Below are positions 13,997-30,639 of a stretch of 64,000 nucleotides of DNA, piece by piece. This stretch comes from Streptomyces sp. NBC_00490. GTDB taxonomy: Bacteria; Actinomycetota; Actinomycetes; Streptomycetales; Streptomycetaceae. Location of the stretch: assembly GCF_036013645.1 (NCBI RefSeq), contig NZ_CP107869.1, positions 4,340,001 to 4,404,000 of the forward strand, read 5' to 3'. Each line of letters begins with the position of its first letter. Position 1 is the stretch's first letter. Under the pieces are notes generated by a model, which ran no database searches, was not told where the DNA came from, and saw only the letters and a list, made by a program, of their open reading frames with translations. Both the position numbers and the translations under genes were made by a program.

Positions 13997-14024
13997 TGTT
14001 CGACAGGTTCTGTTCGACGGGTTC
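13997..14024. promoter_or_regulatory. Tandem 14-bp direct repeat in the LuxR-MFS divergent promoter
   Basis: TGTTCGACAGGTTC (13997-14010) is followed directly by TGTTCGACGGGTTC (14011-14024), one mismatch in 14. The pair lies 64 bp from the LuxR start and 61 bp from the MFS start. Adjacent direct repeats in such a place usually bind a dimeric or cooperative regulator; the LuxR protein is the obvious candidate. This is inference from position and repetition. Confidence 0.5.
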
Positions 14025-14084
14025 CGCCCCTGCGGCCGCCCTGCCCGCACCTCGCCCTGTTGCCGTCCGCGAAGGAAGTCGAGC

Positions 14085-15404
14085 ATGCCGGAACCCGTCA
14101 CGGCCTCGGTGCGGGAACGCCGGTACCGCGTCCTGGTCGCGGGCTACGCCCTGTCGTCGTACGGCAGTTATCTCAACGTCGTCGCGCTCAATCTGTACGT
14201 CTACGCCGTCACCGACCGCGCGCTCGCCGTCGGCGCCTTCATGGCCGTACGGCTCGCCGCGGGGATCGTCGCGGGGCTGCTGGCCGCGCCGATCCTGGCC
14301 CGGTGGTCGGCGCGGTCCGTCATGTTCTGGGTGAACGTGGTGCAGGCGGCGGTGCTGGCGGTCCTGGTGGCGGCGCCCGACACACTGCGGACCCCGGTGC
14401 TGTTCGTGGTCTCGGCGGTGGGCGGGATCACCGGCACGGTCTTCCTGGTCGCGCTGCGCGGCTCGGTCATCCCGGAGATGGTGGCCGAGGAGCGCCGCAC
14501 CTGGGCCAACTCGCTGATGGTGAGCGGGCGTTCGCTGGCGATGGTGGCCGGGTTCGCGTCGGCCGGTGTGGTCGTCTCCCTGCTCGGCTACACAGCGGCC
14601 TTCCTGCTGGACATGGCCACGTTCCTGGTGTGCGCGGTGGCGGTGGCCCAACTGCCCGTCACCCGGCGGCAGAAGACGGACGCCGAGGAGGAGGCGGCGG
14701 ACGCGGCGGAGCCGGCGAGTGCGGCCGGGGCCGGGAAGAAGCGCCGCCGGCTGCCCGCCGCGGTGGCGGTCCTGGCCGGCGCGCCCGTGCTCGGCCTGAT
14801 GGTGCTGCTGCGGGGCGTCGACGCGCTCGGCTCGTCCTCCCACAACGCGGCGCTGCCCGTGTACTCGACGGAACTGGACACCGACAGCCCGGCCACGTTC
14901 GTCAGCGTGTTCTGGTGTGTGTGGGCGTTCGGCAACATCGTGGCCCAGCAGGTGATCCAGCGCCTGCCGCGGCGCTCGGAACAGGCCCTGGGCGCCCTGG
15001 GCTTCGGGCTCGGCACCATCGTGATGTCCGGCGCCTTCATCCTCGCCTTCGCCGGGCTGCCCTGGACCGCGACCGTGCTGATCGCACTCGTCGCGGGGGC
15101 CGCCGACGGACTGACCGAGGTGTCCTACACCCAGCATCTGCAAGCCCTGCCGGAGCGCCTGCGCACCCCGGCCTTCGGGCTGTCGGCGACCGTGGAGAGC
15201 TTCGGCTTCGGCGCCGGGATGATCGCGGTCGGCGCCGCGCTCGACGTGTTCTCGCCGCTGTCGGTCGTCGCGGTCGCACACGGTGTGGCCATCGTGATCG
15301 CCGTGCTCTTCGTGGCCCTGGTGCTGCGCCGCCGTTCGACGGCACCGGCCGGCACCGCGGCGGAGGGCAAGGGCACGGGGGCGGAGGCACGCGCGGAGGT
15401 GTGA
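14085..15404 (+). CDS. MFS exporter, first gene of the biosynthetic operon
   Basis: The 439-residue transporter has 12 predicted membrane segments in two halves with a charged central loop (RRQKTDAEEEAADAAEP). The N-terminal RERRYRVLVAGYALSSYGSYLN is typical of drug-efflux-like MFS proteins. The ATG at 14085 follows GAAGGAAG. It is the first gene rightward from the LuxR regulator and is followed after 63 bp by the PKS gene, so export of the cluster product, and partial self-protection, is the natural inference. Substrate specificity cannot be read from sequence. Confidence 0.9.
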   Translation: MPEPVTASVRERRYRVLVAGYALSSYGSYLNVVALNLYVYAVTDRALAVGAFMAVRLAAGIVAGLLAAPILARWSARSVMFWVNVVQAAVLAVLVAAPDTLRTPVLFVVSAVGGITGTVFLVALRGSVIPEMVAEERRTWANSLMVSGRSLAMVAGFASAGVVVSLLGYTAAFLLDMATFLVCAVAVAQLPVTRRQKTDAEEEAADAAEPASAAGAGKKRRRLPAAVAVLAGAPVLGLMVLLRGVDALGSSSHNAALPVYSTELDTDSPATFVSVFWCVWAFGNIVAQQVIQRLPRRSEQALGALGFGLGTIVMSGAFILAFAGLPWTATVLIALVAGAADGLTEVSYTQHLQALPERLRTPAFGLSATVESFGFGAGMIAVGAALDVFSPLSVVAVAHGVAIVIAVLFVALVLRRRSTAPAGTAAEGKGTGAEARAEV

Positions 15405-15467
15405 GGCGGACCCGGACGTCGAACCGCCGAGGTCGAACCATCGAGCCGGAGCAGAAGGGGGAGAAGG

Positions 15468-18400
15468 GTGCCGGACGACCGACGCGTGGCGGTCATCGGG
15501 ATGGCGCTGAGGTTCCCGGGAGCGGGGACCGCCGAGCAGTACTGGCGTGACATCGAGGCGGGCGTCTCACACGTACGACGGTTCAGCCGGGCCGAGTTAC
15601 GGTCCGCGGGAGCCTCCGAGGACCTCCTCGACGACCCGGACCTCGTCGGCGCCAGTGCGCTGCTGGACGGGGTCGGCGGCTTCGACGCCGCGTTCTTCGG
15701 GATGACCGGGCGCGAGGCGGAGGTGACCGACCCGCAGCAGCGGCTGCTCCTGGAGTGCTGCCACCACGCCCTGGAGGACGGCGGCTACGCCGGCTCCGAC
15801 GCCCGTATCGGGGTGTACGGCAGCGTCGGCTACCGGCTGTACTCGCTGCACAGCTATCTCGCCAACAACCTCGCCGACGTGCCGGGCGACGACTGGATCG
15901 CCCAGAAGCAGGCCCAGGTCGGCAACTATCCCGACTTCGCCGCCAACCGGGCCGCCTTCCGCCTCGGGCTGCGCGGCCCCGCGGTCAATGTCGCCACCGC
16001 CTGCTCCAGCGCCCTCGTCTCGGTCCATCTGGCCTGCCAGGCGCTGCTGGCGGGCGATGCCGAGCTGATGCTGGTGGCTTCGGCGGCCCTGCACTTCCCG
16101 CAGATCACCGGGCACCGGCACGTCAAGGGCTCCACGATCTCCCGGAGCGGCACGGTACGGGCCTTCGACGCGGACGCCGACGGCACGGTCGGCGGCAACG
16201 GGGTCGCGGCGGTCCTGCTGAAGCCGCTGGCCCGGGCGCTGGCCGACGGCGACACCGTGCACGCCGTCATCCTCGGCTCCGCCGTCACCAACGACGGTGA
16301 CGGCAAAGGGGGGTTCGCCGCGCCCGGCGTCGCCGGCCAGCGGGACGCGGTACTCGGCGCGCTGACGCGGGCGGGCGTACGGGCCGACTCCCTCGGCTAT
16401 CTGGAGGCGCACGGCACCGGCACGTTCAAGGGCGACCCGATCGAGTTCGCCGCGCTCACCGAGGCGTTCCGAGCCCACACGGACGGCACGGGCTTCTGCG
16501 CGCTGGGCTCCACCAAGCCCGCGATCGGCCACCTCGACAGCGCGGCGGGTCTGGCGGGGCTGATCAAGGCGATCCTGGTGCTACGGCACGGGGTGATACC
16601 GCCCCTGGTGAACTTCACCCGCGCCAATCCCCTCCTCGCCCTGGAAACCAGCCCGTTCGTCGTACCGACCCGGGCGACACCGTGGCCGAACACCGGAATC
16701 CGGCGGGCCGGGGTGCACTCCATCGGCATGGGCGGGACGAACGCCCACGTGATCGTGGAGGAGGCACCGGGGAGGGAGCCGGGGCGTGTGTCCGGGGGCG
16801 CGTCGGGGAGGGCGCCGGGGGTCTTGTCCGGAGGCGCGTCGGGGAGGGCGCCGGGGGCCTTGTCCGGAGGCGGGGCGGGAGGCGTGGCCCGGGGCATGCG
16901 GGGAGGCGTGGGCGCGGGGGTGCCGGGAGGCGTGGCCACGGAAGTGCCGCGAGACGTGGCCACGGAAGTGCCGCGAGACGTGGCCACGGAAGTGCCGGGA
17001 GACGTGGCCACGGGCATGCCGGGAGACGAGTCCGGGAGCGCGCCAGAAGGTGGGTCCGGGCGGGGCGCGGAAGAGGTTCGCGGTGGGCGGGACGTGCCCG
17101 CGCTGCTGCCGCTGTCGGCGCGGACGCCGGAGGCGCTGGCCGCGTATGCGCGGGCCTTCCGGGACGAGTTGGTCCGGCGCCCGGATCTCGCCCCCGCCGA
17201 TCTGCTGACGACGACCGCGCTCGGCCGGCGCCATCTGCCCCACCGGCTGGTCGTCACCGCGCCCTTCGTCGAGGGACTGGACGCGTTCCTCGCCGAAACG
17301 CAGGGCGCCCTGAACGGGACGGCCGACCGGACCGCCGCCCCCGCCATCCGCGCCGACGTGCCAGGCGCCTTCACCGCAACCGCCGACCAGCCCCTCTCCC
17401 CCACCATCCGCGCCGACGTGCCAGGCGCCTTCACCGGGACGGTCGACCGGTCCGTCTCCCCAGCCTTCCTCTTCAGCGGCCAGGGCGCCGGCGGCCCCGG
17501 CATGGCCGCCGCGCTCGCCGCCCGCTTCCCGGTCGTCGCCGAGGTGCTGCGGGAGTGCGCGCGGGTCTACGACGAGGAGACGGGCCAGAAGGACTTCCTC
17601 GCCCGGATCACCGACGCGGGGAGGCCGTCGAGCGGGCGCGAGGGCACCCGGGCCGCCGACGCGTCGCTTATCGCTCACGGACCGGTCAGCTCCGACCCAC
17701 TGAGCACCGCCGACCGCCCGATCGTCTCCGCCGGGCCGAGCACCGCCGACCGGCCGGACACCGCCGACGAACCCAGCGCCTCCGCCGGATCGAGGACCCC
17801 CGCCGGGCCAGGCCAAGGCGGTCCCACCGACTCGGGCGCGGAAGAGGCGCGGCGTCCCGGTCGTCCCGGCCCGGTGGCCGAAGACCCTCACCGGGCCGCC
17901 CGAACCCGCGGTCCGATCTCCGCACCCCCCACCCCCTGGGACACCGCCTTCGCGCAACCCGCGATCTTCGCCCTGCAGGTCGCCCAGCTCCGGCTCTGGC
18001 GGAGCTGGGGAGTGCGGCCCGGGTCGGTCGCCGGGCACAGTGTCGGGGAGTACGCGGCGCTGTGTGCCGCCGGGGCGCTGTCCCTGGCGGACGGCATGCG
18101 GCTGCTGTGCCGGCGCGGCCGGCTGATGCAGGACACGGCGCCCGGCGCGATGCTCGCCGTCTTCGCCGAGCGGGACCGGGTCCGGGAACTCGCCGCCGAG
18201 GTAGGGCGCGTGGAGCTCGCCGTGTCCAACGGGCCCGAGCACCAGGTGCTGGCCGGCCCGCCCGACGCCGTCGCCGAAGCGCACCGCCGACTGACCGAGC
18301 AGGGCCTGACCGGCGTACCGCTTCCCGTGGACCGCGCCTTCCACAGCGCTCTCCTCGACCCGGTCCTCGACGAGCTGCGCGCGGCCGCCGAGAAGGCCGA

Positions 18401-19328
18401 ACTGCGGCCCGTGGAGATCGAGTTCGTCAGTGGTCTGGACGGTGCCGTCCATCCCCCGGGCTGGCTGCCCGACGCCGGCCACCTCGTCCGCCAGGCCCGG
18501 CACACCGCCGACTTCCACGCCGTACTGCGCACCCTGGCCCCCGTGGACGCCCTGCTGGAACTCGGTCCGGACGCCACCCTGACCCGGCTGGCCCGGCGGG
18601 CGGTCCCGGACACCCTCTGCGTGCCCACGGGCGGCACCCCGGACGAGGTGTGGCGGGCCGCGGCCCGGCTGCACTGCGCCGGGGCGCCCCTCGACTGGGC
18701 CGCCCTGCTCGAAGGGTGCGGGGGCCGGCGTATCCCGCTGCCCACCTACCCCTTTGAGCACCGGTCGTACTGGATCGGCCCACCACCGCCGCCCACCACG
18801 GCCGTACCCGCGCACGAACCCGCGAGAGAACCCGATGGGGAGAACGACGTGACCGACCAGGCTGTACTCAAGCGTGTACTCGAACTGACCGCGCAGCACC
18901 TGGGATACGACCAGGACGGGCTGCGCGCCGGGGAGACCTACGTGGGGCTGGGCGCGGACTCCCTGCAACTGATCGGCATGCTGCGGCAGTTGGAGGGCGA
19001 GTTCGGGGTACGGCTGGCCGTGCGGGAGCTGCTGGAGGACGCGGGGTCGCCGGAGTTGACGGCGCGGCTCATCGCGGAGCGCGTGGCACGGCCGGCGCCG
19101 GAGCCACGGGCCGAGATCATCGACGTACGGCAGACACCGGAGCCACGGAAGGCGGCACCCCAGGCACCCGAGACACCCCAGGCACCCGGGCCCGCCGAGT
19201 ACGCCAGTCGCGGCGAAGTCGCCGAACTGCGGCGGCAGATCGACCTGCTGGCCGAGACGCAGGCATCGTTGATCACCCAGCTCTCCGAGGCCGTCGCCCT
19301 GCTCACCGCCGAGCGGGCCACCCGATGA
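15468..19328 (+). CDS. Type I polyketide synthase module: KS-AT-ACP
   Basis: This 1286-residue protein has KS at residues 5-430 (Cys179 in TACSSAL, His in EAHGTGTFKGDP and KPAIGHLDSAAG); a low-complexity linker at 430-545 with 36- and 24-bp repeats; AT at about 667-1080 (Ser858 in GHSVGEYAA, AFHS near the substrate pocket, more like malonyl- than methylmalonyl-specific enzymes); ACP at about 1125-1200 (Ser1165 in GADSLQL); and a C-terminal coiled coil that looks like a docking element. There is no KR, DH, ER or TE, so the product should remain a beta-ketoacyl-ACP. A roughly 110-residue low-complexity insert (about 707-820) interrupts the AT just before AQPAIFALQ. The GTG start follows GAAGGGGGAGAAGG. 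Leu44 is a TTA codon. The next gene overlaps by 4 bp and starts with a partner coiled coil. Confidence 0.95.
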   Translation: MPDDRRVAVIGMALRFPGAGTAEQYWRDIEAGVSHVRRFSRAELRSAGASEDLLDDPDLVGASALLDGVGGFDAAFFGMTGREAEVTDPQQRLLLECCHHALEDGGYAGSDARIGVYGSVGYRLYSLHSYLANNLADVPGDDWIAQKQAQVGNYPDFAANRAAFRLGLRGPAVNVATACSSALVSVHLACQALLAGDAELMLVASAALHFPQITGHRHVKGSTISRSGTVRAFDADADGTVGGNGVAAVLLKPLARALADGDTVHAVILGSAVTNDGDGKGGFAAPGVAGQRDAVLGALTRAGVRADSLGYLEAHGTGTFKGDPIEFAALTEAFRAHTDGTGFCALGSTKPAIGHLDSAAGLAGLIKAILVLRHGVIPPLVNFTRANPLLALETSPFVVPTRATPWPNTGIRRAGVHSIGMGGTNAHVIVEEAPGREPGRVSGGASGRAPGVLSGGASGRAPGALSGGGAGGVARGMRGGVGAGVPGGVATEVPRDVATEVPRDVATEVPGDVATGMPGDESGSAPEGGSGRGAEEVRGGRDVPALLPLSARTPEALAAYARAFRDELVRRPDLAPADLLTTTALGRRHLPHRLVVTAPFVEGLDAFLAETQGALNGTADRTAAPAIRADVPGAFTATADQPLSPTIRADVPGAFTGTVDRSVSPAFLFSGQGAGGPGMAAALAARFPVVAEVLRECARVYDEETGQKDFLARITDAGRPSSGREGTRAADASLIAHGPVSSDPLSTADRPIVSAGPSTADRPDTADEPSASAGSRTPAGPGQGGPTDSGAEEARRPGRPGPVAEDPHRAARTRGPISAPPTPWDTAFAQPAIFALQVAQLRLWRSWGVRPGSVAGHSVGEYAALCAAGALSLADGMRLLCRRGRLMQDTAPGAMLAVFAERDRVRELAAEVGRVELAVSNGPEHQVLAGPPDAVAEAHRRLTEQGLTGVPLPVDRAFHSALLDPVLDELRAAAEKAELRPVEIEFVSGLDGAVHPPGWLPDAGHLVRQARHTADFHAVLRTLAPVDALLELGPDATLTRLARRAVPDTLCVPTGGTPDEVWRAAARLHCAGAPLDWAALLEGCGGRRIPLPTYPFEHRSYWIGPPPPPTTAVPAHEPAREPDGENDVTDQAVLKRVLELTAQHLGYDQDGLRAGETYVGLGADSLQLIGMLRQLEGEFGVRLAVRELLEDAGSPELTARLIAERVARPAPEPRAEIIDVRQTPEPRKAAPQAPETPQAPGPAEYASRGEVAELRRQIDLLAETQASLITQLSEAVALLTAERATR
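15597..15599 (+). promoter_or_regulatory. TTA codon (bldA-dependent translation) in the KS gene
   Basis: The codon for Leu44 of the KS-AT-ACP protein is TTA, in frame with the GTG at 15468. In Streptomyces TTA codons are read by the developmentally controlled bldA tRNA and are enriched in secondary-metabolism genes, so translation of the first synthase may wait for late growth. Confidence 0.85.
16801..17028 (+). repeat. Coding minisatellite in the KS-AT linker (36-bp and 24-bp units)
   Basis: CGTCGGGGAGGGCGCCGGGG occurs at 16801 and again 36 bp later at 16837. Further on, GTGGCCACGGAAGTGCC-type units start at 16932, 16956, 16980 and 17004, a period of 24 bp (8 codons, reading VATEVPRD). Both periods are multiples of 3, so the frame is kept. 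The encoded stretch is Gly/Ala/Pro-rich and without predicted fold. Confidence 0.85.
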
Positions 19329-22300
19329 GCCCGGGCACGGCGGCGGACCGGGCCGCGGCACTGTCCCGCCGACTGGACGAGCAGCTCGCACGGGCACGGC
19401 AGGCCGCAGCGGATCCCGCACCCCCGGCACCCGCCGTCCACGGCCCCCGCGTCACCCTCCCCCACGACTCCGGCATGGCCGGCGCGGGCGCCACCGACAC
19501 CCAGCGCACGCACGCCGCGGGCCTCGCCCGGCGGCTCTCGGAACGCACCCGGACCTCCAAGGAGCTGGCGCAGTCACGGCGTTCGGTGCTCGCGGACAGC
19601 CGGGCCGTGGTCGGGTTCCGGCGTTCGACGAAGGAGACGCTGTACCCGCTCGCGGCCCGTGACGCACGCGGCGCGCACCTGACGGACGTCGACGGGAACA
19701 CGTACACCGACATCACGATGGGTTTCGGGTCCCTGCTCCTCGGCCATGAGCCGGATTGTGTGACCGAGGCCGTGCGCGCACACCTGGACGGCGGGCTGCG
19801 GTTCGGTCCGCGTCCGGTCGAGGCGGGTGAGGTCGCCCAGTTGCTCGCCGAGTTCACCGGTATGGAACGCGTCGCGTTCGCGGCCTCCGGCACCGAGGCC
19901 AACTCCGCCGCGATCCGGCTCGCCCGCGCCGCCACCGGACGCGACCGGATCGTCATGTTCCGCGGCTCCTACCACGGTCACATCGACACCGTGCTCGGCC
20001 GCCCCGGACCGGGCGACGGCGCCGTCCCCGTCTCCCGCGGCATCCCCGACAGCGCCGTCGCGGAGCTGATCGTCCTGGAGTACGGCAGCCAGGAGGCCCT
20101 CACCACCATCGACGCGCTCGGCGACCGTGTCGCCGCGGTCCTCGTCGAGCCCGTGCAGTGCCGCAACCCCGCTCTGCGCCCGGTCGCCTTCCTGCGCGAG
20201 CTACGCGAGCTGACCCGGCGGCGCGGCATCGTGCTGCTCTTCGACGAGATGCTCACCGGCCTGCGCCCGCATCCGCGCGGCGCCCAGCACCACTTCGGGG
20301 TCGTGCCCGACCTCGCCACCTACGGAAAGGCGCTCGGCAGCGGCTTCCCCGTCGGGGCGATCGCGGGGCGGGCCGACATCATGGACGGCGTCGACGGCGG
20401 ATTCTGGCGGTACGGCGACGAGAGCCGCCCCACCGCCGAGACCACCTTCTTCGGCGGGACCTACCTTCAGCACCCGCTGTCCATGGCGGCGGCCAAGGCG
20501 GTCCTCACCCATCTCGCCGCCGAGGGGCCCGGACTCCAGGAGCGGCTCAACGCCCGCACGGACGCCCTCGCCGACGACCTCAACCGGTTCTTCACCGACG
20601 AGGAATTCCCCCTGGAACTCGCCCACTTCGGGTCGATGTTCCGTTTCGTCCACCGCGCGGACATGGAACTGCTCTACCAGCACCTGCTGTTGCGCGGCAT
20701 CTACGTCTGGGAGTGGCGCAGCTTCTATCTCTCCACCGCCCACACCGACACCGACACCGAGCGGGTCGCGGACGCGGTGAAGGGGTCCCTGCGGGAGCTG
20801 CGGGACGCGGGCTTCTTCCCGACGACCCGGCGCACCGCCGCCCGGGCACGGGCCGAACACCGCCCCAGACGGCCCGACTTCGGGGTGTACTTCTTCGGCG
20901 ACTACCCCGACGCCGACAGCACCTCCGCCTACGAACGGCTCGTCGACACCGCCCGCTTCGCCGACGAACGCGGCTTCAGCTCCCTGTGGCTGCCCGAGCG
21001 GCACTTCCACTCCTTCGGCGGGCTCTTCCCCAACCCGGCGGTCCTGGCCGCCTCGCTGGCCCGCGAGACCAGCCGGATCCGGCTCAACGCCGGGTCGGTC
21101 GTACTGCCGCTGCACGATCCAGTGCGGGTCGCGGAGGAGTGGTCGGTCGTCGACAACCTCTCCGGCGGCCGGGTCGGCCTCGGCTGCGCCACCGGCTGGC
21201 ACGCCCAGGACTTCGCACTCCATCCGGACCGTTTCGAGCGCCGCAAGGAGATCGCCTTCGCCCACCTCGAGGACGTGACGACGCTGTGGCGCGGCGGTGC
21301 GGTACGGCGCGTCACCGGCGAGGGCGAGCCCGTCGACGTGAGGATCCATCCCCGTCCGGTCCAGGAGCTGCCACCGATGTTCCTCGCCACCTCCGGGCGG
21401 CGTGCCTCGTACGAGGAGGCCGGGCGGCGCGGACTCGGGATCGTCACCAACCTGATGGGGCAGACCGTCGCCGAACTCGCCGACAACATCCGCCACTTCC
21501 GCAAGGCCCGCGAACAGCACGGCCTCGACCCCGACACCGGCCGGGTCACCGTCCTGCTCCACACCTACCTCGGCACGGACCACGCTTCGGCCCGCGCGGA
21601 GGCGCTGGAGCCGATGAGCCGCTATCTGCGTTCCTCCCTCCAGATGCGCTCGGCGGCGAGCGCGGTGGGCGCCGGGCCCGAGGACGTGGCGACGGCGAGC
21701 GAGGACGACCTCGACTACCTCTTCCGCCGCGCCTACGACCGCTACTGCGACGAACGCGCCCTCATCGGCACCCCCGACAGCTGCGCCCCCCTGGTGCAAA
21801 CCCTGCACGAGGCCGGCGTCGACGAAATCGCCGCCCTGGTGGACTTCGGCATGCCGACGGACCGGATGCGGGCGGGCCTGGATCATTTGGACACGTTGCG
21901 GCGACGGATGTTGGGGGCGGTGCCGGGGGGCGCGGGGGCGGAGGGGGCGGTGGCGCCGGGCACGAGGGGGGAGGAGACAGTGCCGCCGGGCGCGGGGGCG
22001 GAGGAGGCGGTGCCGCCGGGCCGGAGCGCGCAGAAGGCTGTGCCACCGAGCGCAAGCGCGGCGGTGGCGGTGCCGCCGGGCCGGAGGGCGGGAGGGGCTG
22101 TCCTGCCGGACGCGGACACAGTGGAAGCTATGCCGCCGAGCCGCGGCACCGACAAGGCTGTGCCATCGAGCGCGGGTACGACGGTGGCGGTACCGCCAGA
22201 CGTGAGGACGGCAGAGGCAGTCCTACCGGACACGGGCACGGGCACGGGCACGGTGGAGGCTGTGCCGCCGGGCGCTGGCGCGGCGGTGACGGTGCCGCCA

Positions 22301-25300
22301 GACGTGGGGGCGGGAGAGGCAGTCCTGCCGGACGCGGGCACGGTGGAGGAAGCGGTGCAGCCGGTCCGGAGCGCGCAGAAGGCTGTGCCACCGAGCGCGG
22401 GCACGACGGAGTCGGTGCCGCCAGACGTGAGGGCGGGAGAGGCAGTCCTGCCGGACGCGGGCACGGTGGAGGAAGCGGTGCAGCCGGTCCGGAGCGCGCA
22501 GAAGGCTGTGCCACCGAGCGCGGGCACGACGGAGTCGGTGCCGCCAGACGTGAGGGCGGGAGAGGCAGTCCTGCCGGACGCGGGCACGGTGGAGGAAGCG
22601 GTGCAGCCGGTCCGGAGCGCGCAGAAGGCTGTGCCACCGAGCGCGGGCACGACGGAGTCGGTGCCGCCAGACGTGAGGGCGGGAGAGGCAGTCCTGCCGG
22701 GCCGGCGCACGCTGGAGGCTTTGCCGCCGAGCCGAAGCACGGACAAGACAGTGCCGCCAGACGTGAGGACGGCAGAGGCAGTCCTGCCAGGCGCAGGCAC
22801 AGTGGAAGCTTTGCCGCCGAGCCGGAGCACCGACAAGGCTGTGCCGCCAGGCGTGGACGCGGCGGACTCAATGCCCCCGGGGGCAGGCACGGCTGTGGCT
22901 GTGCCGCCAGGCGGGTGCACAGTGGACGTGGTCGGCCGTGACTCCGCGAGTGCGCACCGCCGGGGCTCCACCGATGGCCCTGGTGGGCCTCTGGGCGGTG
23001 GCCCGCTGGCCACGGTCCGGCGGGGCCCCGCGACCGACGCACAGCGTCGGCTCTGGCTCGCCGCGCGGCTGATCGCCGATCCGGCCGCGTACAACGAGAT
23101 CCAGGCCGTGCGGCTGCGCGGCCCCCTTTCCGAGCGGGCGCTGCGCACGGCCGTGTCGGGGCTTGTCGAGCGGCACGCGGGTCTGCGGACGGTCTTTCGC
23201 GCGGCGGGCGACACGGTCGAGCAGGTCATACGGCCCGACCTCCGACCGGAGTTGACGGTCACCGACGTCGACGGGCTGGAGGCGGTGGCCGCCGTTCTGC
23301 GGGAGGAGAGCGGACGGCCGTACGACCTCGCCGAGGGCCCCCTGTTCACACCCCGGCTGCTGCGCCTCGCGGCGGACGACCACGTACTGGTCCTCGGCCT
23401 GCACCACATCATCACGGACGCCCACTCGGCGGGGCTGCTCGCCGCGGACCTGGAGGAGCTGTACCGCGCGTCGGTGGAGGACCGGGCCCCGGTGTTCGCG
23501 GCACCGGCGGGAACCACCCTGGACGAGCCGCGGACCGCTCACGGCCCTGCCCACCTGGATGAACCGGCGTCCGCCACACCCACCGGAACCGCCCCGATCG
23601 GGCCACGGTCCGCCCACGCCCCTGCCCACCCGCACAAACCACAGCCCGGCCACCACCCCACCACCCCGGACCAGCCACACCTACCGGCCTCGGAGCACCG
23701 AGAACCGGCGTCCGTCACACCCACCGTCACCACCCCGACCGGTCCCCGGGCCGCTCACACCCCTCCCCACCCGGACGAACCACAGCCCGGCCCCCACCCC
23801 ACCACCCCGGACGGACCGTCGACCGGCTATGACCCCGCCGACCTGGACTGGTGGCTCGGGTATCTCGACCCCCTGCCTCCCGCCCCCGCCCTGCCCACGG
23901 ACCGGCCGCGTGGGCGGCGGGTCGCCGGGCGGGGGGCGGCCGAGGAGGTTTTCTGGGGTGCGGGTCGGGCCGGGCGGTTGCGGGAGTGGAGCGGGCGGCA
24001 GGGTGTGACGCTGTTCTCGACGTTGCTCACCGCCTGGCAGCTCGGGCTGCGGGAACGGTCCGGGCAGGACGAGTTCGTGGTCGGATCCACCTTCGGGAGG
24101 CGCCGCCCCGGCACCGAGCACACCGTCGGCTTCCATGTCGCCGTACTCCCGCTGAAGGCGTCGCTCACCGACACGACCGGCCTGCGGGACGCCGTACGGG
24201 CCACGCGGGATGCCCTGTTCGCCGCCGACGCGCACCAACACGTCGACGTGGACGCCCTGTTGGCCGCCGTCAACCCCGACCCGGGTCATCCGCGCCCGCT
24301 GGTGACGGTGTCGGCGGATCTGGACAGCGCACCCCTGTCCCGGCTCCGGCTGCCCGGACTCACCACGGAACAGATCCCCGGCGGCACCGAATCGGCCCCG
24401 CTGGAACTGGCGTTGGCGACCCTGGACACCCGCGACGGACTGCGGCTGCGGATCCGCTACGACGCCGATCTGTACGACGCGTCGACCGTACGGGGGCTGC
24501 TGGCCGACCTGGACCGGGTGCTGGAGGCCATGGCGGACGGTCGGGCCGTGACGGTGGCGGACACCAAAACCGCCGCCGCCCCGGCAGCGAGCCAACCGGA
24601 AGCATCCGACCCGCGCGAGACCGAAACCCTGCGAACCCTGTGGTCCTCCGTCCTCGGTACCGACGACGTCTCCGACACCGCCGACTTCTTCGACCTGGGC
24701 GGCAGTTCGATCGCCGCGATCCGGTTGCACAACCGGGTCCGGGACGCCCTCGGCGTCGAGTTCTCGCTGGCGGACTTCTTCGCCGAACCGACCCTCGGCG
24801 CGCTGATCCGGTCGCTGACGGGGAGCGGGACCGCCGAAGTCACCGGCGTCGCCGAGGACGTCGTGGACCGTGCCCCCGTCACCGACCAGCAGGCCCGGAT
24901 GCTGGCCGCCCAGCCCGCCCTGCCCCGGCCGCAGGTCTACAACGTGCCGACGCGCATCCGCCTCACCGGCCCCGTCGACACGGACGCCCTGCGCACGGCC
25001 CTGACCGAACTGGTGCGGCGCCACCACTCACTGCGCACCCGATACGCCCAGGACGGTGAGGGCGCCTGGTGGCAGGAGGTCGTGGACGTCGCCCCGCCGC
25101 CGCTGCGGATCGTGGACTACAGCCGGCTCCCCGCCGAACGGGCCGCGCAGCGCGCGGACCAGGCCTGCCGGGCGGCGGCCGACGAGCCCTTCGACCTGAC
25201 CCGCCCGGCCCTTCCCCGGCTGCGGCTGCTGCGGGTCGCGCCGGACGAGTGGGTGCTGATGTTCGTGGTGCACCACATCTGCACCGACGGCTGGTCCCAC

Positions 25301-26209
25301 GGCGTACTCCTCGGCGAGCTGGCCGCCCTCTACACCGCCGCCGCGACCGGCACCGCCCCCGCCCTGCCCCCGCCCTCGGCCCAGCCCGCCGACCACGCCC
25401 GCCGTCAGCTCGCACGCCGGGGCGGGACCGAACGGACCCGGCGGGCCGCGCACTTCGTCGACCACCTCACCGGCGTACCCACCCGTCTGGAGGTGCCCAC
25501 GGACCGGCCCCGCTCCGGACACCTCAGCGGCGACGGCGACACCGTCCGCGCCCACGCCCCGGCCGAACTGCGGGGCAGGGTGGAGAGGTTCGCCGCGGCG
25601 CACCGGGTGACGCCGTTCGCCGTGGCGGCCGCCGCGCTCGGCGTCACCGTGGCCCGGCTCTCCGGCGTGCGGGACCTGCTGGTGGGGGTGCCGTACGCCA
25701 ACCGGGACGGCAGCGACACCGAGACGCTGGTGTCGCTGGTCTCCACGAACATGCCGGTCCGGATACGGGTCGAGCCCGAGGAGACCTGCGCCGAACTGGT
25801 CGCCCGCACCGGCGCGGAGACGCTGGCCGCCATGGCGAACGTGCTGCCGACGGCCGAGGTGTGGCAGGCGCTGCGGGAGGCGGGCGTACGCGAGGTGCCC
25901 GAGGTGGTGTCGTGTCTGCTGGTCTTCCAGAACACCGACGACGTGGAGATCGAGATCCCCGGACTCGGGGTGGAGGTGGACGACGTGGCGCCGCCGGCGG
26001 CGCGCACGGAGCTGACGTTCGGGCTGACGCCGCGGCGCGATCCGGCGCTGGGCTACCGGGCGTATGTCGAATACTCGGCGGACCTGTGGGACAGGAAGTC
26101 GGCGGAGCGGATCCTCGGCTCCTACCTGTCCGCCCTCGACGACCTGTGCGCCGAACCCGGCCGTACGGTCGGCGAGTTGCTCGCCCCCACCACCTCCGGA
26201 GAGGCATAA
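19325..26209 (+). CDS. Hybrid synthase: aminotransferase - luciferase-like monooxygenase - C - PCP - C
   Basis: This 2294-residue protein begins with a coiled-coil N-terminus (residues 5-30), then a class III PLP aminotransferase at about 95-505 (PLP Lys335 in TYGKALGSGFPVG), a luciferase-like monooxygenase of the type fused to synthases at about 518-855 (LWLPERHFHSFGG, GCATGWHAQDF), and a low-complexity repeat linker at about 860-1205. Then come C1 at about 1229-1760 (His1361 in HHIITDA, Ala instead of the usual Gly, with a Pro/His/Thr-rich insert at about 1389-1499), PCP (Ser1794 in DLGGSSIAA), and C2 at about 1850-2290 (HHICTDG from 1983). In known systems such as microginin the aminotransferase makes a beta-amine from the ACP-bound beta-ketone, and a monooxygenase is thought to add the alpha-hydroxyl. 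There is no A domain in cis, so PCP must be loaded in trans. The start overlaps the PKS stop (ATGA). Confidence 0.93.
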   Translation: MSPGTAADRAAALSRRLDEQLARARQAAADPAPPAPAVHGPRVTLPHDSGMAGAGATDTQRTHAAGLARRLSERTRTSKELAQSRRSVLADSRAVVGFRRSTKETLYPLAARDARGAHLTDVDGNTYTDITMGFGSLLLGHEPDCVTEAVRAHLDGGLRFGPRPVEAGEVAQLLAEFTGMERVAFAASGTEANSAAIRLARAATGRDRIVMFRGSYHGHIDTVLGRPGPGDGAVPVSRGIPDSAVAELIVLEYGSQEALTTIDALGDRVAAVLVEPVQCRNPALRPVAFLRELRELTRRRGIVLLFDEMLTGLRPHPRGAQHHFGVVPDLATYGKALGSGFPVGAIAGRADIMDGVDGGFWRYGDESRPTAETTFFGGTYLQHPLSMAAAKAVLTHLAAEGPGLQERLNARTDALADDLNRFFTDEEFPLELAHFGSMFRFVHRADMELLYQHLLLRGIYVWEWRSFYLSTAHTDTDTERVADAVKGSLRELRDAGFFPTTRRTAARARAEHRPRRPDFGVYFFGDYPDADSTSAYERLVDTARFADERGFSSLWLPERHFHSFGGLFPNPAVLAASLARETSRIRLNAGSVVLPLHDPVRVAEEWSVVDNLSGGRVGLGCATGWHAQDFALHPDRFERRKEIAFAHLEDVTTLWRGGAVRRVTGEGEPVDVRIHPRPVQELPPMFLATSGRRASYEEAGRRGLGIVTNLMGQTVAELADNIRHFRKAREQHGLDPDTGRVTVLLHTYLGTDHASARAEALEPMSRYLRSSLQMRSAASAVGAGPEDVATASEDDLDYLFRRAYDRYCDERALIGTPDSCAPLVQTLHEAGVDEIAALVDFGMPTDRMRAGLDHLDTLRRRMLGAVPGGAGAEGAVAPGTRGEETVPPGAGAEEAVPPGRSAQKAVPPSASAAVAVPPGRRAGGAVLPDADTVEAMPPSRGTDKAVPSSAGTTVAVPPDVRTAEAVLPDTGTGTGTVEAVPPGAGAAVTVPPDVGAGEAVLPDAGTVEEAVQPVRSAQKAVPPSAGTTESVPPDVRAGEAVLPDAGTVEEAVQPVRSAQKAVPPSAGTTESVPPDVRAGEAVLPDAGTVEEAVQPVRSAQKAVPPSAGTTESVPPDVRAGEAVLPGRRTLEALPPSRSTDKTVPPDVRTAEAVLPGAGTVEALPPSRSTDKAVPPGVDAADSMPPGAGTAVAVPPGGCTVDVVGRDSASAHRRGSTDGPGGPLGGGPLATVRRGPATDAQRRLWLAARLIADPAAYNEIQAVRLRGPLSERALRTAVSGLVERHAGLRTVFRAAGDTVEQVIRPDLRPELTVTDVDGLEAVAAVLREESGRPYDLAEGPLFTPRLLRLAADDHVLVLGLHHIITDAHSAGLLAADLEELYRASVEDRAPVFAAPAGTTLDEPRTAHGPAHLDEPASATPTGTAPIGPRSAHAPAHPHKPQPGHHPTTPDQPHLPASEHREPASVTPTVTTPTGPRAAHTPPHPDEPQPGPHPTTPDGPSTGYDPADLDWWLGYLDPLPPAPALPTDRPRGRRVAGRGAAEEVFWGAGRAGRLREWSGRQGVTLFSTLLTAWQLGLRERSGQDEFVVGSTFGRRRPGTEHTVGFHVAVLPLKASLTDTTGLRDAVRATRDALFAADAHQHVDVDALLAAVNPDPGHPRPLVTVSADLDSAPLSRLRLPGLTTEQIPGGTESAPLELALATLDTRDGLRLRIRYDADLYDASTVRGLLADLDRVLEAMADGRAVTVADTKTAAAPAASQPEASDPRETETLRTLWSSVLGTDDVSDTADFFDLGGSSIAAIRLHNRVRDALGVEFSLADFFAEPTLGALIRSLTGSGTAEVTGVAEDVVDRAPVTDQQARMLAAQPALPRPQVYNVPTRIRLTGPVDTDALRTALTELVRRHHSLRTRYAQDGEGAWWQEVVDVAPPPLRIVDYSRLPAERAAQRADQACRAAADEPFDLTRPALPRLRLLRVAPDEWVLMFVVHHICTDGWSHGVLLGELAALYTAAATGTAPALPPPSAQPADHARRQLARRGGTERTRRAAHFVDHLTGVPTRLEVPTDRPRSGHLSGDGDTVRAHAPAELRGRVERFAAAHRVTPFAVAAAALGVTVARLSGVRDLLVGVPYANRDGSDTETLVSLVSTNMPVRIRVEPEETCAELVARTGAETLAAMANVLPTAEVWQALREAGVREVPEVVSCLLVFQNTDDVEIEIPGLGVEVDDVAPPAARTELTFGLTPRRDPALGYRAYVEYSADLWDRKSAERILGSYLSALDDLCAEPGRTVGELLAPTTSGEA
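21900..22930 (+). repeat. Coding repeat tract between monooxygenase and C1, with 123-bp near-identical units
   Basis: About 1 kb encodes a degenerate 13-14-residue motif (A-V-P/L-P-x-x-x...). Inside it, units beginning GACGTGAGGGCGGGAGAGGC start at 22301 (one variant), 22424, 22547 and 22670. The period is 123 bp (41 codons) and the copies are nearly identical. The near-identity points to recent duplication or ongoing homogenisation. No fold or function is recognisable. Confidence 0.9.
23561..23840 (+). repeat. Two 141-bp coding repeats inside condensation domain C1
   Basis: GAACCGGCGTCCG starts at 23561 and again at 23702, a period of 141 bp (47 codons). The units encode Pro/His/Thr-rich text (EPASATPTGTAP..., EPASVTPTVTTP...). 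They sit between the helix after HHIITDA and the DLDWWLGYL helix, at a natural loop of the C fold, so the domain may tolerate the insert. Confidence 0.8.
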
Positions 26210-26213
26210 GCGC

Positions 26214-27506
26214 ATGACCAAGGCCATCGATCCCCTGCACAACGAGGACCTGCTCGCCTTCCTGGAAGCCGCCTCCTCGCCCTACCACGCGGTGGCGCAG
26301 GCCGTGCAGCGCCTGGAGAAGGCCGGCTTCGAGGAACTGCGGGAGACCGAGGAGTGGACCGGTCACAGCGGTGGCCGGTTCGTCGTACGGGGCGGCGCGC
26401 TGCTCGCCTGGTACGTCCCCGAGGGGGCGCCCGCGCACACACCGTTCCGGATCATCGGCGCGCACACCGACTCCCCCAACCTGCGGGTCAAGCCGACCCC
26501 GGACACCGGCTCGGCCGGCTGGCGCCAGGTCGCCGTGGAGATCTACGGCGGGGTCCCGCTGAACACCTGGCTCGACCGCGACCTCGGAGTCTCCGGCCGG
26601 GTGACCCTGCGCGACGGCACCGCGAAGCTGGTCAAGATCGACGAACCCCTGTTGCGGGTACCGCAGTTGGCGATCCACCTCGACCGTACGGTGAACGAGG
26701 GCCTGTCCCTCGACCGGCAGCGCCAGCTCCAGCCGGTGTGGGCGCTGGGCCGGCCGGAGCCGGGTGCGCTGCTGCGCCGGATCGCGGCCGACGCCGGGCT
26801 CGACCCGGCCGAGGTGCTCGGCTGGGACCTGATGCTGCACGATGTGCAGAAGCCCGGACTGCTGGGCGCCGACCGCGAGTTCCTGGTCTCGGCGCGGCTG
26901 GACAACCTCGTCTCCGTGCACGCGGGCGCCGCCACGCTGGCCACCGTCGCACAGTCCTGGCCGGGGGCCGCCGAACGCATCCCGGTCCTCGCCGCGTTCG
27001 ACCACGAGGAGGTCGGCTCCGGCTCCGAGACCGGGGCGCAGGGCCCCCTCCTGGAACGCGTCCTGGGCCGGGTGGTGACCGCGCGGGGCGGGGGCGCCGA
27101 GGACTGGGCGCGGGCACTGGCGGGCACGATCTGCGTCTCCTCCGACATGTCGCACGCGGTGCACCCCAACTACAGCGAGCGGCACGACCCGGACAACCAT
27201 CCGCTGCCCAACGGCGGCCCGGTGATCAAGGTCAACGTCAATCAGCGGTACGCCACCGACGGCACCGGCTATGCCGCGTTCGCCGCCGCCGCGGACCGGG
27301 CCGAGGTGCCCTGGCAGCGGTTCGTGTCCAACAACGCCATGCCCTGCGGTACGTCGATCGGGCCGATCACCGCGGCCCGGCTGGGCGTGACGACGGTGGA
27401 CGTGGGCGTGCCCGGACTGTCCATGCACTCCTCGCGCGAGCTGTGCGGGGCGGACGACCCCGGGTATCTGGCCCGGGCGCTGGCGGAGTTCGTCTCGGCG
27501 GGCTGA
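26214..27506 (+). CDS. M18-family aspartyl/leucyl-type aminopeptidase inside the cluster
   Basis: The 430-residue dinuclear zinc aminopeptidase has its family metal and catalytic motifs intact: His84 in GAHTDSPNLRVKP, Asp in SARLDNLVSV, the Glu pair in FDHEEVGSGS, Asp in SSDMSHAVHPNYSE, and His in GLSMHSSREL. It is a normal-length cytosolic enzyme with no signal peptide. The ATG at 26214 lies 4 bp after the synthase stop, and the thioesterase gene follows after 26 bp, so it is an integral operon member. M18 enzymes are usually single housekeeping genes. Here the synthases look set up to make a 3-amino-2-hydroxy acid, a warhead of aminopeptidase inhibitors, so a resistant target copy is the leading idea. 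Product trimming is the alternative. Confidence 0.92.
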   Translation: MTKAIDPLHNEDLLAFLEAASSPYHAVAQAVQRLEKAGFEELRETEEWTGHSGGRFVVRGGALLAWYVPEGAPAHTPFRIIGAHTDSPNLRVKPTPDTGSAGWRQVAVEIYGGVPLNTWLDRDLGVSGRVTLRDGTAKLVKIDEPLLRVPQLAIHLDRTVNEGLSLDRQRQLQPVWALGRPEPGALLRRIAADAGLDPAEVLGWDLMLHDVQKPGLLGADREFLVSARLDNLVSVHAGAATLATVAQSWPGAAERIPVLAAFDHEEVGSGSETGAQGPLLERVLGRVVTARGGGAEDWARALAGTICVSSDMSHAVHPNYSERHDPDNHPLPNGGPVIKVNVNQRYATDGTGYAAFAAAADRAEVPWQRFVSNNAMPCGTSIGPITAARLGVTTVDVGVPGLSMHSSRELCGADDPGYLARALAEFVSAG

Positions 27507-27532
27507 GCCGACCGACAAGAGGGGGGCAGAAG

Positions 27533-28288
27533 GTGTCTTCGAGGAATGTGACCCTGGCGGGGGCCGACCCCGAGCGGGCCGCACTGCGGGTGCTGATCGT
27601 GCCGCACGCCGGGGCGGGCGGGGCGAGCGGGCAGCCGTTCGCCGCGCACGCGCCGGACGACTGGCTGGTGGCGACGGCCCGGCTGCCCGGCCGCGAGTCC
27701 CGCGTCCGGGAGACCGGGCGTGATCTCGACGCCCTCACCGCGGACGTCACCGCCACGATCCGGGACCTGCCGGGCTCGGCACCCCTGCTCGTGCTCGGCG
27801 TGTGCTCGGGCGCCGTGATCGCGCTGGAGGCGCTGCGACGTTTGGGCTCCGCAGGTGTCGCGGGCCTCGTCGTGGTGTCCCAGTGGGCGGTGAACGAGAA
27901 GCCCGACCCCGGCCGCCGTCTCCTGCGCGACGTCGACCCCGGCCGTGACCGTGCCGAAGTCCTGGACATCCTGCGGGACTTCGGCGGCGTACCGGACGCA
28001 CTCGCCGCGAACGAGGAGATGCTCGGCCTGCTGCTGCCGGCGATCGTGGCGGACATCAGGGCCGTTGAGGACTACGTCTGCGAACCCTTCGACCCCGGCG
28101 TCCCCCTCCTGACCGTCTTCGGCGACGAGGACGAACTCTGCTCGGAGGAGCGCACCGACGCCTGGTCCCTCTTCGGCCCCCACACCCGCACGGTCTGGCT
28201 ACCGGGCCACCACCTGCTCCTGGTGGACGAACCGCAGGCCCTGGCAACGGCCGTGGCGGAGAACCTGGACCACTGGGGTCTCGTGTGA
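27533..28288 (+). CDS. Thioesterase (alpha/beta hydrolase, type II-like) with cysteine nucleophile
   Basis: The 251-residue protein belongs to the RifR/GrsT type II thioesterase fold: IVPHAGAGGAS near the N-terminus, RLPGRESR, the Asp loop FGDEDELC, and the His motif PGHHLLLVDEP (His227). The nucleophile elbow reads GVCSGAV where family members have GHSMGA, placing Cys91 at the nucleophile position. Cysteine thioesterases are known and often act in product release or unusual off-loading rather than simple editing. No other release domain exists in the cluster, so this enzyme may carry out chain release. The GTG follows AGAGGGGGGCAGAAG, and the next gene overlaps the stop by 4 bp. Confidence 0.88.
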   Translation: MSSRNVTLAGADPERAALRVLIVPHAGAGGASGQPFAAHAPDDWLVATARLPGRESRVRETGRDLDALTADVTATIRDLPGSAPLLVLGVCSGAVIALEALRRLGSAGVAGLVVVSQWAVNEKPDPGRRLLRDVDPGRDRAEVLDILRDFGGVPDALAANEEMLGLLLPAIVADIRAVEDYVCEPFDPGVPLLTVFGDEDELCSEERTDAWSLFGPHTRTVWLPGHHLLLVDEPQALATAVAENLDHWGLV

Positions 28289-30639
28289 CGCGGGTGACGA
28301 GTACGGCGGACATGGCTGGTATGGCGGCGGATACGGCTGGTACGGCGGACAAGGCAGGTTCGGCAGGCGCGACGGACACGACGGTCGCGACAGGTGCGAC
28401 GGGCACGGCGAGCTCGGCGGCCGCGGCCAGCACCGCGAGTTCGCGCGGCACGGCGGACTCGGGCGGCACGGCGAGTTCGGCGGGCACGACGGACACGGCG
28501 GGCACGGCGGGCACGGCGGGCACGGCGGGCACGGCGGGCACGGCGGGCACGGCGGGCACGGCGGGCACGGCGGACGCGGCGGGCACGGCGGGCACGGCGG
28601 ACGCGGCGGGCACGGCGGGCACGGCGGGCACGGCGGACGCGGCGGACACGACGGTCGCGGCAAGTGCAATGGGCACGGCGGGTTCGGTGGGTCCGGTGGG
28701 CTCGGCGAACGCAGCCGACACGACGGGCACGGGCGGCACGGCGGGCTCGGGCGGCACGGCGGGCTCGGGCGGCACGGCGGGCTCGGGCGGCGCGGCGAGC
28801 ACAACGGGCTCGGCGGACCCCGCGGGCGCGGCGGGCAGCCTGGATGTCGCTGGTGCCGCCCACCGGATCGATGCGTTGCTGCTGGAGCGTCTGGGGCGGG
28901 ACCCGGGGCGGACCGCCCTGGTCTGTGCCGACGGGGCCGTGGTGAGTGCTGGGGAGTTGCGGGAGCGGGTGCTGGTGGTGGCGGCCGCGCTGGGGGCCCG
29001 GGGGCTGGGGCCCGGCGACCGGGTCGCGGTCTATCACGAGCGGTCGGTCGAGTTCGTGGCGGCGGTGCTGGGCGTGGCCTGCGCGGGGGCGGCACACGTG
29101 GCGTTCGACGTGGCCGATCCGCCCGCCCGCACGCTCGGCATGCTGGAGGACTGCGCGCCGCGCGCGGTGCTGACGAGCCGGGCCCTGCGCGACCGCCTCG
29201 ACGGCTGTGCGGTCCCGCTGCTGACGGACGACGAGTACCGCACCGGACAGCCGGCCCCGACACCGGTGGCCGGCTCCCCGGACGACCCCGTCGCGCTGAT
29301 CTTCACGTCCGGCTCGACCGGCCGCCCCAAGGCGTCCCTGATCAGCCACCGCGCCCTGGTCTCCCGGATGAACGCGCTGCAGACCACGCACCCCATGACC
29401 GGCGACGACCGGCTCGTCCACCACACCACGTGCACCTTCGACATGTATCTCGCGGAGATCTACTGGCCGTTGCTCTCCGGCGCCACGCTCGTGCTCTCCG
29501 CCCCCGGCGGACAGCGCGACGCCGACCATCTGGCGGCGCTGATCCGCGACCACGGCGTCACGACGATGTACTTCGGGGTGTCGCTGCTGGAACTGTTCCT
29601 GCTGGCCCGCGACGAGACCGAGCGCTACGACGGTCTGCGCCAGGTCCTGACCGGCGGCGAACCGCTCCCCGCCGACCTGGTGCACCGCTTCCACGCCCGT
29701 TCCACGGCCTCCCTGACCAACCTCTACGGCCCGAGCGAGTGCACGATCCACTGCACCGCCTGGCCGTGCCCGCGCGACCCCGCCCTCGACACGGTCCTCA
29801 TCGGCTCCGCCGTCCCCGACACCGAGCTGTGGGTCCTCGACGAGGACGGCCGTCCGGTGCCCGAGGGCGAACCCGGCGAGCTGCACATCGGCGGCGCGGG
29901 CCTGGCCCTCGGCTATCTCAACCGCCCCGAACTGACCGCGGAACGCTTCCTCGAGTCGCCCCCCGTGGCACCGGGCCGGCGGCTCTACCGCTCCGGCGAC
30001 CTCGTACGGGCCCGGCCCGGCGGCGCCTTGGAGTTCCTCGGCAGGGTCGACCGGCAGGTGAAGATCCGCGGTGTCCGTGTCGAGCTCGGTGAGATCGAGT
30101 CGACGGCCCGGCGTTGCGCGGGGGTGCGGCAGGCGGTCGTGGTGGCACACGGCGCGGGCCTGGAGAAGGCGCTGGCCGCGTTCGTGGTGCCCGAGGTGCC
30201 GTCCGCGCCGGCCGCCGAGCTGACGGCGTCGGTCCGCGAGGCCCTGCGCGGCTGGCTTCCGCCCACGATGGTCCCGGCGACGGTCGACCTCCTGGACGCC
30301 CTCCCGTTCACGCCGAACGGCAAGGTGGACCGCCTGCTGCTGGAGTCCCGGGCGGCACGCGCCACACCGTCGCGCCCGGCGCCCGCAACGGACGCGGGGG
30401 CCGGGGAGCTCGGCGTCGAGGAGCTGGTGGCCGCCGTCTGGTGCGAGGCCCTCGGGCTGGACTCCGTGAAGCCCGACGACGACTTCTTCGACCTGGGCGG
30501 GAACTCGTACAAGGTGGTCGAGACCGTCACCCGGCTCAGGGAGCGGCTGGGCGCGGAGATCCCGCTGGCGGCCCTGCTGGAGGAGCCGACCGTGCGCGGG
30601 TTCGCCGAGGAGATACGGCGGGTCACGGGGCGTGCGTGA
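28285..30639 (+). CDS. NRPS adenylation-PCP didomain with long Thr-Ala-Gly-rich N-terminus
   Basis: This 784-residue protein has residues 1-195 composed almost only of Thr, Ala, Gly and Ser (9-bp repeats encoding TAG). The A domain lies at about 200-690 (LIFTSGSTGRPKASL, YGPSECT, YRSGDLV, NGKVDR) and the PCP at about 700-775 (Ser741 in DLGGNSYKV). The A4 region reads TFDMYLAEIYW, so the conserved Asp that binds the alpha-amine is present. A by-eye ten-residue code is D-M-A-Y-L-G-L-I-H-K, which I do not recognise. As the only A domain in the cluster it must load its own PCP and probably the PCP of the preceding protein. The GTG start overlaps the thioesterase stop; an internal start within the repeat tract is possible. 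Confidence 0.92.
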   Translation: MTRVTSTADMAGMAADTAGTADKAGSAGATDTTVATGATGTASSAAAASTASSRGTADSGGTASSAGTTDTAGTAGTAGTAGTAGTAGTAGTAGTADAAGTAGTADAAGTAGTAGTADAADTTVAASAMGTAGSVGPVGSANAADTTGTGGTAGSGGTAGSGGTAGSGGAASTTGSADPAGAAGSLDVAGAAHRIDALLLERLGRDPGRTALVCADGAVVSAGELRERVLVVAAALGARGLGPGDRVAVYHERSVEFVAAVLGVACAGAAHVAFDVADPPARTLGMLEDCAPRAVLTSRALRDRLDGCAVPLLTDDEYRTGQPAPTPVAGSPDDPVALIFTSGSTGRPKASLISHRALVSRMNALQTTHPMTGDDRLVHHTTCTFDMYLAEIYWPLLSGATLVLSAPGGQRDADHLAALIRDHGVTTMYFGVSLLELFLLARDETERYDGLRQVLTGGEPLPADLVHRFHARSTASLTNLYGPSECTIHCTAWPCPRDPALDTVLIGSAVPDTELWVLDEDGRPVPEGEPGELHIGGAGLALGYLNRPELTAERFLESPPVAPGRRLYRSGDLVRARPGGALEFLGRVDRQVKIRGVRVELGEIESTARRCAGVRQAVVVAHGAGLEKALAAFVVPEVPSAPAAELTASVREALRGWLPPTMVPATVDLLDALPFTPNGKVDRLLLESRAARATPSRPAPATDAGAGELGVEELVAAVWCEALGLDSVKPDDDFFDLGGNSYKVVETVTRLRERLGAEIPLAALLEEPTVRGFAEEIRRVTGRA
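28490..28670 (+). repeat. 9-bp coding microrepeat (GCGGGCACG) in the A-PCP gene
   Basis: GGCGGGCAC-type units repeat every 9 bp with few interruptions, encoding TAG/TAD tripeptides. A related GGCGGCACGGCGGGCTCG unit (18 bp) repeats at about 28730-28790. The frame is preserved. Simple repeats of this kind slip easily, so copy number may differ between strains. Confidence 0.85.

Follow-up and report, generated by a model that had tools for sequence, protein, structure and literature searches.

Organization of the locus

We analysed a 64,000-nucleotide stretch of DNA from Streptomyces sp. NBC_00490 (contig NZ_CP107869.1, forward-strand positions 4,340,001 to 4,404,000; hereafter the window, with coordinates counted from its first nucleotide), in which a polyketide synthase (PKS)–nonribosomal peptide synthetase (NRPS) cluster had been predicted from sequence to make a 3-amino-2-hydroxy-acyl peptide of the bestatin, amastatin or microginin type. 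By reading-frame scan, the predicted interval extends from the ATG at 14085 of a major facilitator superfamily (MFS) transporter gene, MFS1, to the end at 30639 of a gene encoding an adenylation (A) domain and a peptidyl carrier protein (PCP). The domain order originally proposed, with a ketosynthase (KS), acyltransferase (AT) and acyl carrier protein (ACP) without a ketoreductase (KR), then an aminotransferase, a luciferase-like monooxygenase and condensation (C), PCP and C domains, and finally a separate A-PCP protein, was borne out by Pfam and, for the NRPS protein, also by TIGR04020 (Table 1). Two genes that the original prediction had not included, encoding an M18 zinc aminopeptidase and a type II thioesterase, lie between the NRPS and A-PCP genes.

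Pfam matches in the PKS protein were the KS (194 and 126 bits), AT (147 bits) and ACP, with no KR domain; in the NRPS protein they included the luciferase-like monooxygenase (182 bits), Condensation, PP-binding and again Condensation. Read by eye, the catalytic motifs of the translations look active: TACSSA in the KS, GHSVG and RAFHS in the AT, from which the AT appears malonyl-like, GADSLQ in the ACP, the aminotransferase lysine within TYGKALGSG, HHIITDA (with A instead of the usual G) in the first and HHICTDG in the second C domain, and GGSS and GGNS in the PCPs. Among the scanned cluster proteins there is no loading domain and a single AMP-binding domain, that of the A-PCP protein, and no cis thioesterase was seen in the assembly-line proteins; judging from the domain order, the module without its own A domain must be supplied in trans. 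The domain order is well beyond chance: the aminotransferase-monooxygenase pair recurs at 61–96% identity in 32 public loci. Tandem-repeat linkers lie within the PKS and NRPS and ahead of the A domain (21913–22920, 16763–17028, 17304–17469 and 28301–28837; for example, a 123-base unit in 3.8 copies with 96% matches), and proteins 91–97% identical vary from 1836 to 2224 residues in length, one partial record being omitted from that range.

Table 1. Features of the cluster and its borders in the window
Feature	Position	Strand	Evidence
LuxR-type regulator, C-terminal GerE	12932..14101	-	Pfam GerE, 28.9 bits
MFS transporter MFS1	14085..15404	+	Pfam MFS_1, 83.9 bits
PKS module KS-AT-ACP without KR	15468..19328	+	Pfam, translation
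NRPS protein: aminotransferase, luciferase-like monooxygenase, repeat linker, C, PCP, C (2294 residues)	19325..26209	+	Pfam, NCBIfam, translation
Class III aminotransferase domain (predicted reaction: amination of the beta-keto thioester)	19643..20794	+	Pfam, 171 bits; identity to kin
FMN-dependent luciferase-like monooxygenase domain, MupA/Atu3671 subfamily, predicted alpha-hydroxylase	20879..21901	+	TIGR04020, 438.6 bits (cut-off 244)
First condensation domain (C1), interrupted by a low-complexity insert; approximate end	23027..24440	+	Pfam Condensation in two stretches; translation
PCP of the module without its own A domain	24623..24811	+	Pfam, translation
Second condensation domain (C2), presumed partner of the A-PCP protein	24866..26182	+	Pfam
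M18 zinc aminopeptidase with intact catalytic residues, proposed to serve in self-immunity	26214..27506	+	Pfam, 427 bits; NF002759, 572 bits (cut-off 356)
Type II thioesterase	27533..28288	+	Pfam Thioesterase, 84.9 bits
A-PCP protein, about 190 residues of AGT-rich repeats ahead of the A domain	28285..30639	+	Pfam AMP-binding and PP-binding
Second MFS transporter	30649..32310	-	Pfam MFS_1, 114 bits

A distinct M18 lineage is linked to the cluster

The M18 family is near-universal in the genus (147/150 Streptomyces genomes), and the window genome carries two M18 genes, the cluster copy being 64% identical to the housekeeping copy (G000:C1:5423669-5424901). With the window M18 protein as query, 43 copies in 42 of 392 Streptomyces genomes scored at least 689 bits, the next scoring at most 653 among the matches listed. 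The aminotransferase-monooxygenase pair was termed near-type at 76% identity or more, a line set after the matches had been viewed, and in this form was found in 23 of the 392 genomes (split in G149 into two matches of 80 and 78%). All 23 near-type genomes possess the M18 lineage, versus 19 of the other 369 (Fisher p = 5e-26, with genomes that are not phylogenetically independent). In 22 of the 23, the M18 gene follows the pair on the same strand, approximately 3–4 kb downstream, whereas G126 has it on a separate contig; G267 holds the cluster together with an additional M18 copy lacking an adjoining cluster (an orphan). Below the line fell G326 (69%), G323 (66%) and G088, the last with matches of 74 and 71%, a cis A domain and no M18 of the cluster lineage. 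Public contigs contained 32 loci with the pair, 22 near-type (here at least 75%) and 10 far-type (61–72%), and the M18 gene was present in 19/19 near-type loci with sufficient DNA, L004, L005 and L016 being omitted because their contigs end early; a 27% match (L063) was omitted from all counts. Thus, near-type genomes display the linkage that is looked for in a self-resistance gene.

A tree of 61 M18 rows (59 different: 13 housekeeping, the window protein, 27 cluster and 20 orphan) placed the housekeeping proteins on one branch (100/100) and the cluster and orphan proteins on the other (100/100), so that, as in target duplication, an extra copy of a core gene resides in the cluster and belongs to a clade apart from the core copy. 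Across 25 loci plus the window, M18 distances correlated with those of the aminotransferase (0.84), monooxygenase (0.86), MFS1 (0.92) and C2 (0.83) (24–26 sequences; 0/2000 permutations as high), which indicates that the linkage is old.

Orphan M18 genes occupy cluster sites

We read the loci of all 20 M18-lineage copies that have no adjoining cluster. Fourteen lie in the interval between fumA, a class I fumarase gene, and "fumC", a class II fumarase/aspartase-family lyase gene whose best over-cut-off NCBIfam match is the aspartate ammonia-lyase subfamily (in one of them, L135, the contig end removes the fumA side), and the remaining six at one second site; clusters of other strains occupy both. 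Clusters start beside fumA in 8/27 cluster loci (L013, L014, L017, L018, L021, L026, L033 and L204); the DNA read extends to fumC in L014 and L204 and to the lipase-like gene preceding fumC in all the others but L021. At the second site, where flanking genes are 76–92% identical with two exceptions at 55–74%, the clusters of G370 and G212 hold the M18 gene in the equivalent position. Overall, the 20 orphan loci comprise 13 with M18 alone, with LuxR present in 7 and MFS1 in 6; in the fum interval, LuxR, MFS1 and M18 occur together in six, LuxR and M18 in one and M18 alone in seven. No PKS or NRPS relic was detected by tblastn, either at E 1e-4 in eight loci or at E 1e-15 with 35% identity in all 20, and weak matches in L134 and L137 were a separate luciferase-like gene and an AMP-binding gene native to the site.

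As a control, 20 fum sites without a cluster-lineage M18 were inspected; this was a non-random set, 19 being drawn from the higher-ranking fumA matches with some rows skipped, and one being the window genome. Nineteen of them hold no cluster gene, with two stretches at 31–36% in G044 taken as unrelated, and G065 has an MFS1 homologue alone (63% over 383 residues; L218, 1927 onward). From this comparison, what was seen to remain where production genes are missing is the M18 gene, the transporter or the regulator.

In the tree, 22 fum-site M18 proteins form one clade (100/98) that mixes orphans with clusters, the orphans L130, L132 and L133 are nested within a cluster clade (99/89), and the six second-site orphans group with both second-site clusters (99/94). 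The orphan genes are maintained, because dN/dS was 0.10–0.21 in eight orphan pairs with stop-free frames; the four cluster pairs gave 0.04–0.12. We read the tree and the correlated distances as M18 and the biosynthetic genes forming an old co-inherited unit from which biosynthesis has repeatedly been lost.

Active-site residues of the M18 copies

Metal ligands and the catalytic base are conserved in the cluster M18 proteins. In all sequences compared (48 cluster or orphan versus 13 housekeeping), the residue after the glutamate of DHEE is V, I, C or T rather than N, and the residue after the aspartate of SSD is M rather than T or V. The changed residues flank metal-binding ones, as would be expected for an altered target, which is only suggestive.

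Lys374 of human DNPEP has been proposed as a mark of aspartyl aminopeptidases (PMC3472314). A single offset brings DNPEP Glu301, Asp346, His349, Lys374 and Tyr381 into register with the printed chain, and in the alignment Lys339 of the window M18 (in the motif IKVN) corresponds to Lys374, His314 to His349 and Tyr346 to Tyr381; the lysine, histidine and tyrosine are identical in 48/48 cluster or orphan and 13/13 housekeeping proteins. Since these putative acidic-specificity residues are kept in both groups, the first residue of an inhibitor directed at M18 may be acidic. The bestatin literature consulted concerns M1 and M17 enzymes (PMC8485470).

Predicted product and comparison with known systems

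Like PKS-aminotransferase-monooxygenase systems, the cluster combines a KS-AT-ACP module without ketoreduction, a class III aminotransferase fused before a C domain and a luciferase-like monooxygenase fused adjacent to it. The aminotransferase domain shares 52% identity with its counterpart in a Planktothrix microginin-like synthetase (L205) and 48% with that of bacillomycin BamA, with the three best other aminotransferase matches in its own genome reaching only 33–41% over 240–380 residues, and the relevant sections of two papers assign the 3-amino-2-hydroxy acyl unit to the aminotransferase and monooxygenase pair (PMC4219810, PMC13252402). Because of this kinship and these papers, the predicted 3-amino-2-hydroxy-acyl unit is reasonable: beta-amination has both related enzymes and published pairs in its favour, the monooxygenase is a putative C2 hydroxylase, and a 3-amino-2-hydroxy-acyl peptide is our best prediction for the product.

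Bestatin, amastatin, phebestin and probestin are Streptomyces aminopeptidase inhibitors that carry an N-terminal 3-amino-2-hydroxy acid on a short peptide. The predicted N-terminal unit and the producing genus are alike, the likeness being one of compound structures. The M18 gene fits an aminopeptidase inhibitor, strengthening this part of the proposed bestatin, amastatin or microginin type, and the product is probably a small peptide that resembles bestatin and blocks aminopeptidases; the putative acidic-specificity residues of M18 count against a plainly bestatin-like product. Microginin clusters, as far as the sections seen of one report describe them, load a fatty acid with a fatty acyl-AMP ligase (FAAL) and a free ACP, micA and micB (PMC12250027), and membership of the microginin clusters was rejected for want of a FAAL, the sole AMP-binding domain in the scanned cluster proteins being that of A-PCP.

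The Planktothrix agardhii locus L205, on plasmid p1 in a record not named microginin, resembles the window cluster in its KS-AT-ACP-aminotransferase order followed by a C domain but differs in having a FAAL and ACP, an AurF-like protein (under the Pfam cut-off), cis A domains and a thioesterase, and in lacking both a luciferase-like domain and M18. Its synthetase adjoins the DISARM defence genes drmA and drmC on the plasmid. Among the matches listed in 40 plasmid records, cyanobacteria gave the aminotransferase only and no monooxygenase domain. Puwainaphycin PuwE, compared from the published description, shares the order of PKS module, aminotransferase, monooxygenase and NRPS and the 3-amino-2-hydroxy acyl unit, whereas puwainaphycin is a long cyclic lipopeptide with a fatty-acyl starter, and M18 is unmentioned in the sections seen of that paper (PMC4219810). 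The ichizinone cluster likewise has a Streptomyces host, a PKS, a luciferase-like monooxygenase, a type II thioesterase and beta-amino acids, but possesses four NRPS modules, lacks an aminotransferase and AT, and lists no peptidase in the gene table of the report as seen (PMC12144821). A literature search, with most subscription journals outside its coverage, returned neither a bestatin-family cluster described from Streptomyces nor an M18 gene reported for self-resistance.

Interpretation and alternative explanations

Three observations have to be explained together: the domain set, the strict linkage of a distinct M18 lineage, and the M18 gene at cluster sites without detectable biosynthetic genes. 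We lean towards the explanation that the cluster makes a short linear peptide, initiated by a 3-amino-2-hydroxy acid, that inhibits a metallo-aminopeptidase, with the M18 gene as the producer's immunity copy. In this scheme, KS-AT-ACP would extend an acyl starter by one malonyl unit and leave the beta-keto group, which the aminotransferase would convert into a beta-amine; the monooxygenase would introduce a hydroxyl at the alpha-carbon; C1 and C2 would add two residues, perhaps both activated in trans by the single A domain; and MFS1, the probable exporter, would release the product. The M18 copy would confer immunity, the housekeeping M18, or an aminopeptidase related to it, may be the target, and orphan M18 genes would arise by loss of the biosynthetic genes, non-producing lineages retaining immunity. 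A narrower version, which we put forward tentatively and hold a little short of probable, is that the product inhibits the core bacterial M18 enzyme, of which the cluster M18 is an insensitive twin, and that immune non-producers persist at two sites; its first residue may then be acidic and thus unlike bestatin, for example 3-amino-2-hydroxy-glutaric or -adipic acid if the starter were malonyl or succinyl.

Several points weigh against this explanation. Altogether 36 alignment columns distinguish cluster and orphan from housekeeping M18 proteins, so plain divergence may account for the active-site differences. A neutral, bestatin-like first residue would fit an M18 target less well, given the residues aligned above, and resistance to bestatin and amastatin is a trait of aspartyl-type M18 enzymes. 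M18 was found in 0/10 far-type loci over the approximately 10 kb that follow the pair. Whether the change was a loss or a gain is not decided by the tree, and complete losses go uncounted because the orphans were found through M18.

If instead LuxR, MFS1 and M18 were an older peptide-handling cassette unrelated to immunity, into which the PKS and NRPS genes were inserted later, the orphans would be ancestral; the trio without PKS or NRPS genes in six loci and the intermixing of orphans and clusters in the M18 tree agree with this, but M18 and the biosynthetic domains co-diverged, L130, L132 and L133 fall inside a cluster clade, and the same pattern recurs at two separate sites, which makes such an origin doubtful. 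We regard as still less probable a role of M18 in maturation, in which it would trim the finished peptide much as PepN frees blasticidin S from a leucyl precursor: a Streptomyces antibiotic matured by an aminopeptidase is on record in the portion seen of one paper (PMC4664946) and the catalytic residues of M18 are intact, but 20 orphan genes persist without biosynthetic genes, and the domain order gives no reason to expect a leader residue, since the first module builds the N-terminal residue. Service of the orphan M18 proteins to far-type aminotransferase-monooxygenase clusters at other loci of their genome would account for the presence of both in G024, G075, G100 and G166; with an orphan in only 4/36 far-type-only genomes versus 15/333 genomes with neither type, we give this very little credence.

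A further alternative touches the chemistry, in that the monooxygenase may give no stable alpha-hydroxyl and yield either an alpha-keto-beta-amino acid, an ending of the poststatin or eurystatin type, or an oxidation for ring closure as in ichizinones. The ichizinone cluster pairs a luciferase-like monooxygenase with beta-amino acids such as 3-amino-4-phenylbutanoic acid, by the sections seen of that report (PMC12144821), whereas in the puwainaphycin and Athmu-type pathways, as described in the parts seen of their papers, the aminotransferase-monooxygenase pair accompanies a 3-amino-2-hydroxy unit (PMC4219810, PMC13252402), and we consider the alternative unlikely.

Should the immunity explanation hold, a molecular target would be named for a cluster family present in 23/392 sampled Streptomyces genomes, and a handle would be gained on what the bacterial M18 aminopeptidase, an enzyme little studied so far, does. 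The loci would moreover form a natural series (cluster, LuxR with MFS1 and M18, LuxR with M18, M18 alone) for immunity kept after the loss of production; on the narrower version, immune non-producers would take part in a widespread arms race over peptide inhibitors.

Adenylation codes, related clusters and bordering genes

A-domain codes were read by hand, by alignment to A-domain motifs. The window code reads DMAYLGLIHK, its final K assumed, and no specificity match was recognised; window-type codes follow DM[ACSIV]YLGL[IV][HY]. Fum-site-type clusters have DFWSVGMVH, which we take to be Thr-like, and S. griseus-type clusters have a short-chain dehydrogenase/reductase gene and an A-PCP protein with a Thr-like code. 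Far-type codes follow DA[LM]..G[VI][VI][LF], and the far-type loci opened, in which M18 was not seen, mostly place the A domain between C and PCP. A related monooxygenase (53–60%) without a fused aminotransferase occurs in 28 loci from several actinomycete genera (L035–L062), mostly with KS-AT ahead of it and C, A and PCP behind; the A code starts with DV in 4/5 of these monooxygenase-only loci read, those of L035, L041 and L053 being presumably Pro-like, and that of L036 reads DAALMGAIV. In L012, L014 and L149 (G019), M18 is present and the A-PCP gene was not found in the stretch read; these are perhaps half-lost clusters.

The true start of the LuxR-type gene is probably near 13930, and its homologues are equally placed in many related clusters. 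The second MFS gene was matched in only 3/61 public loci (L003, L006 and L007) and is followed by a tRNA-Cys gene bordering the cluster, beside which a protein encoded at 32478–33779 on the minus strand contains two SUKH-4 immunity-type stretches.

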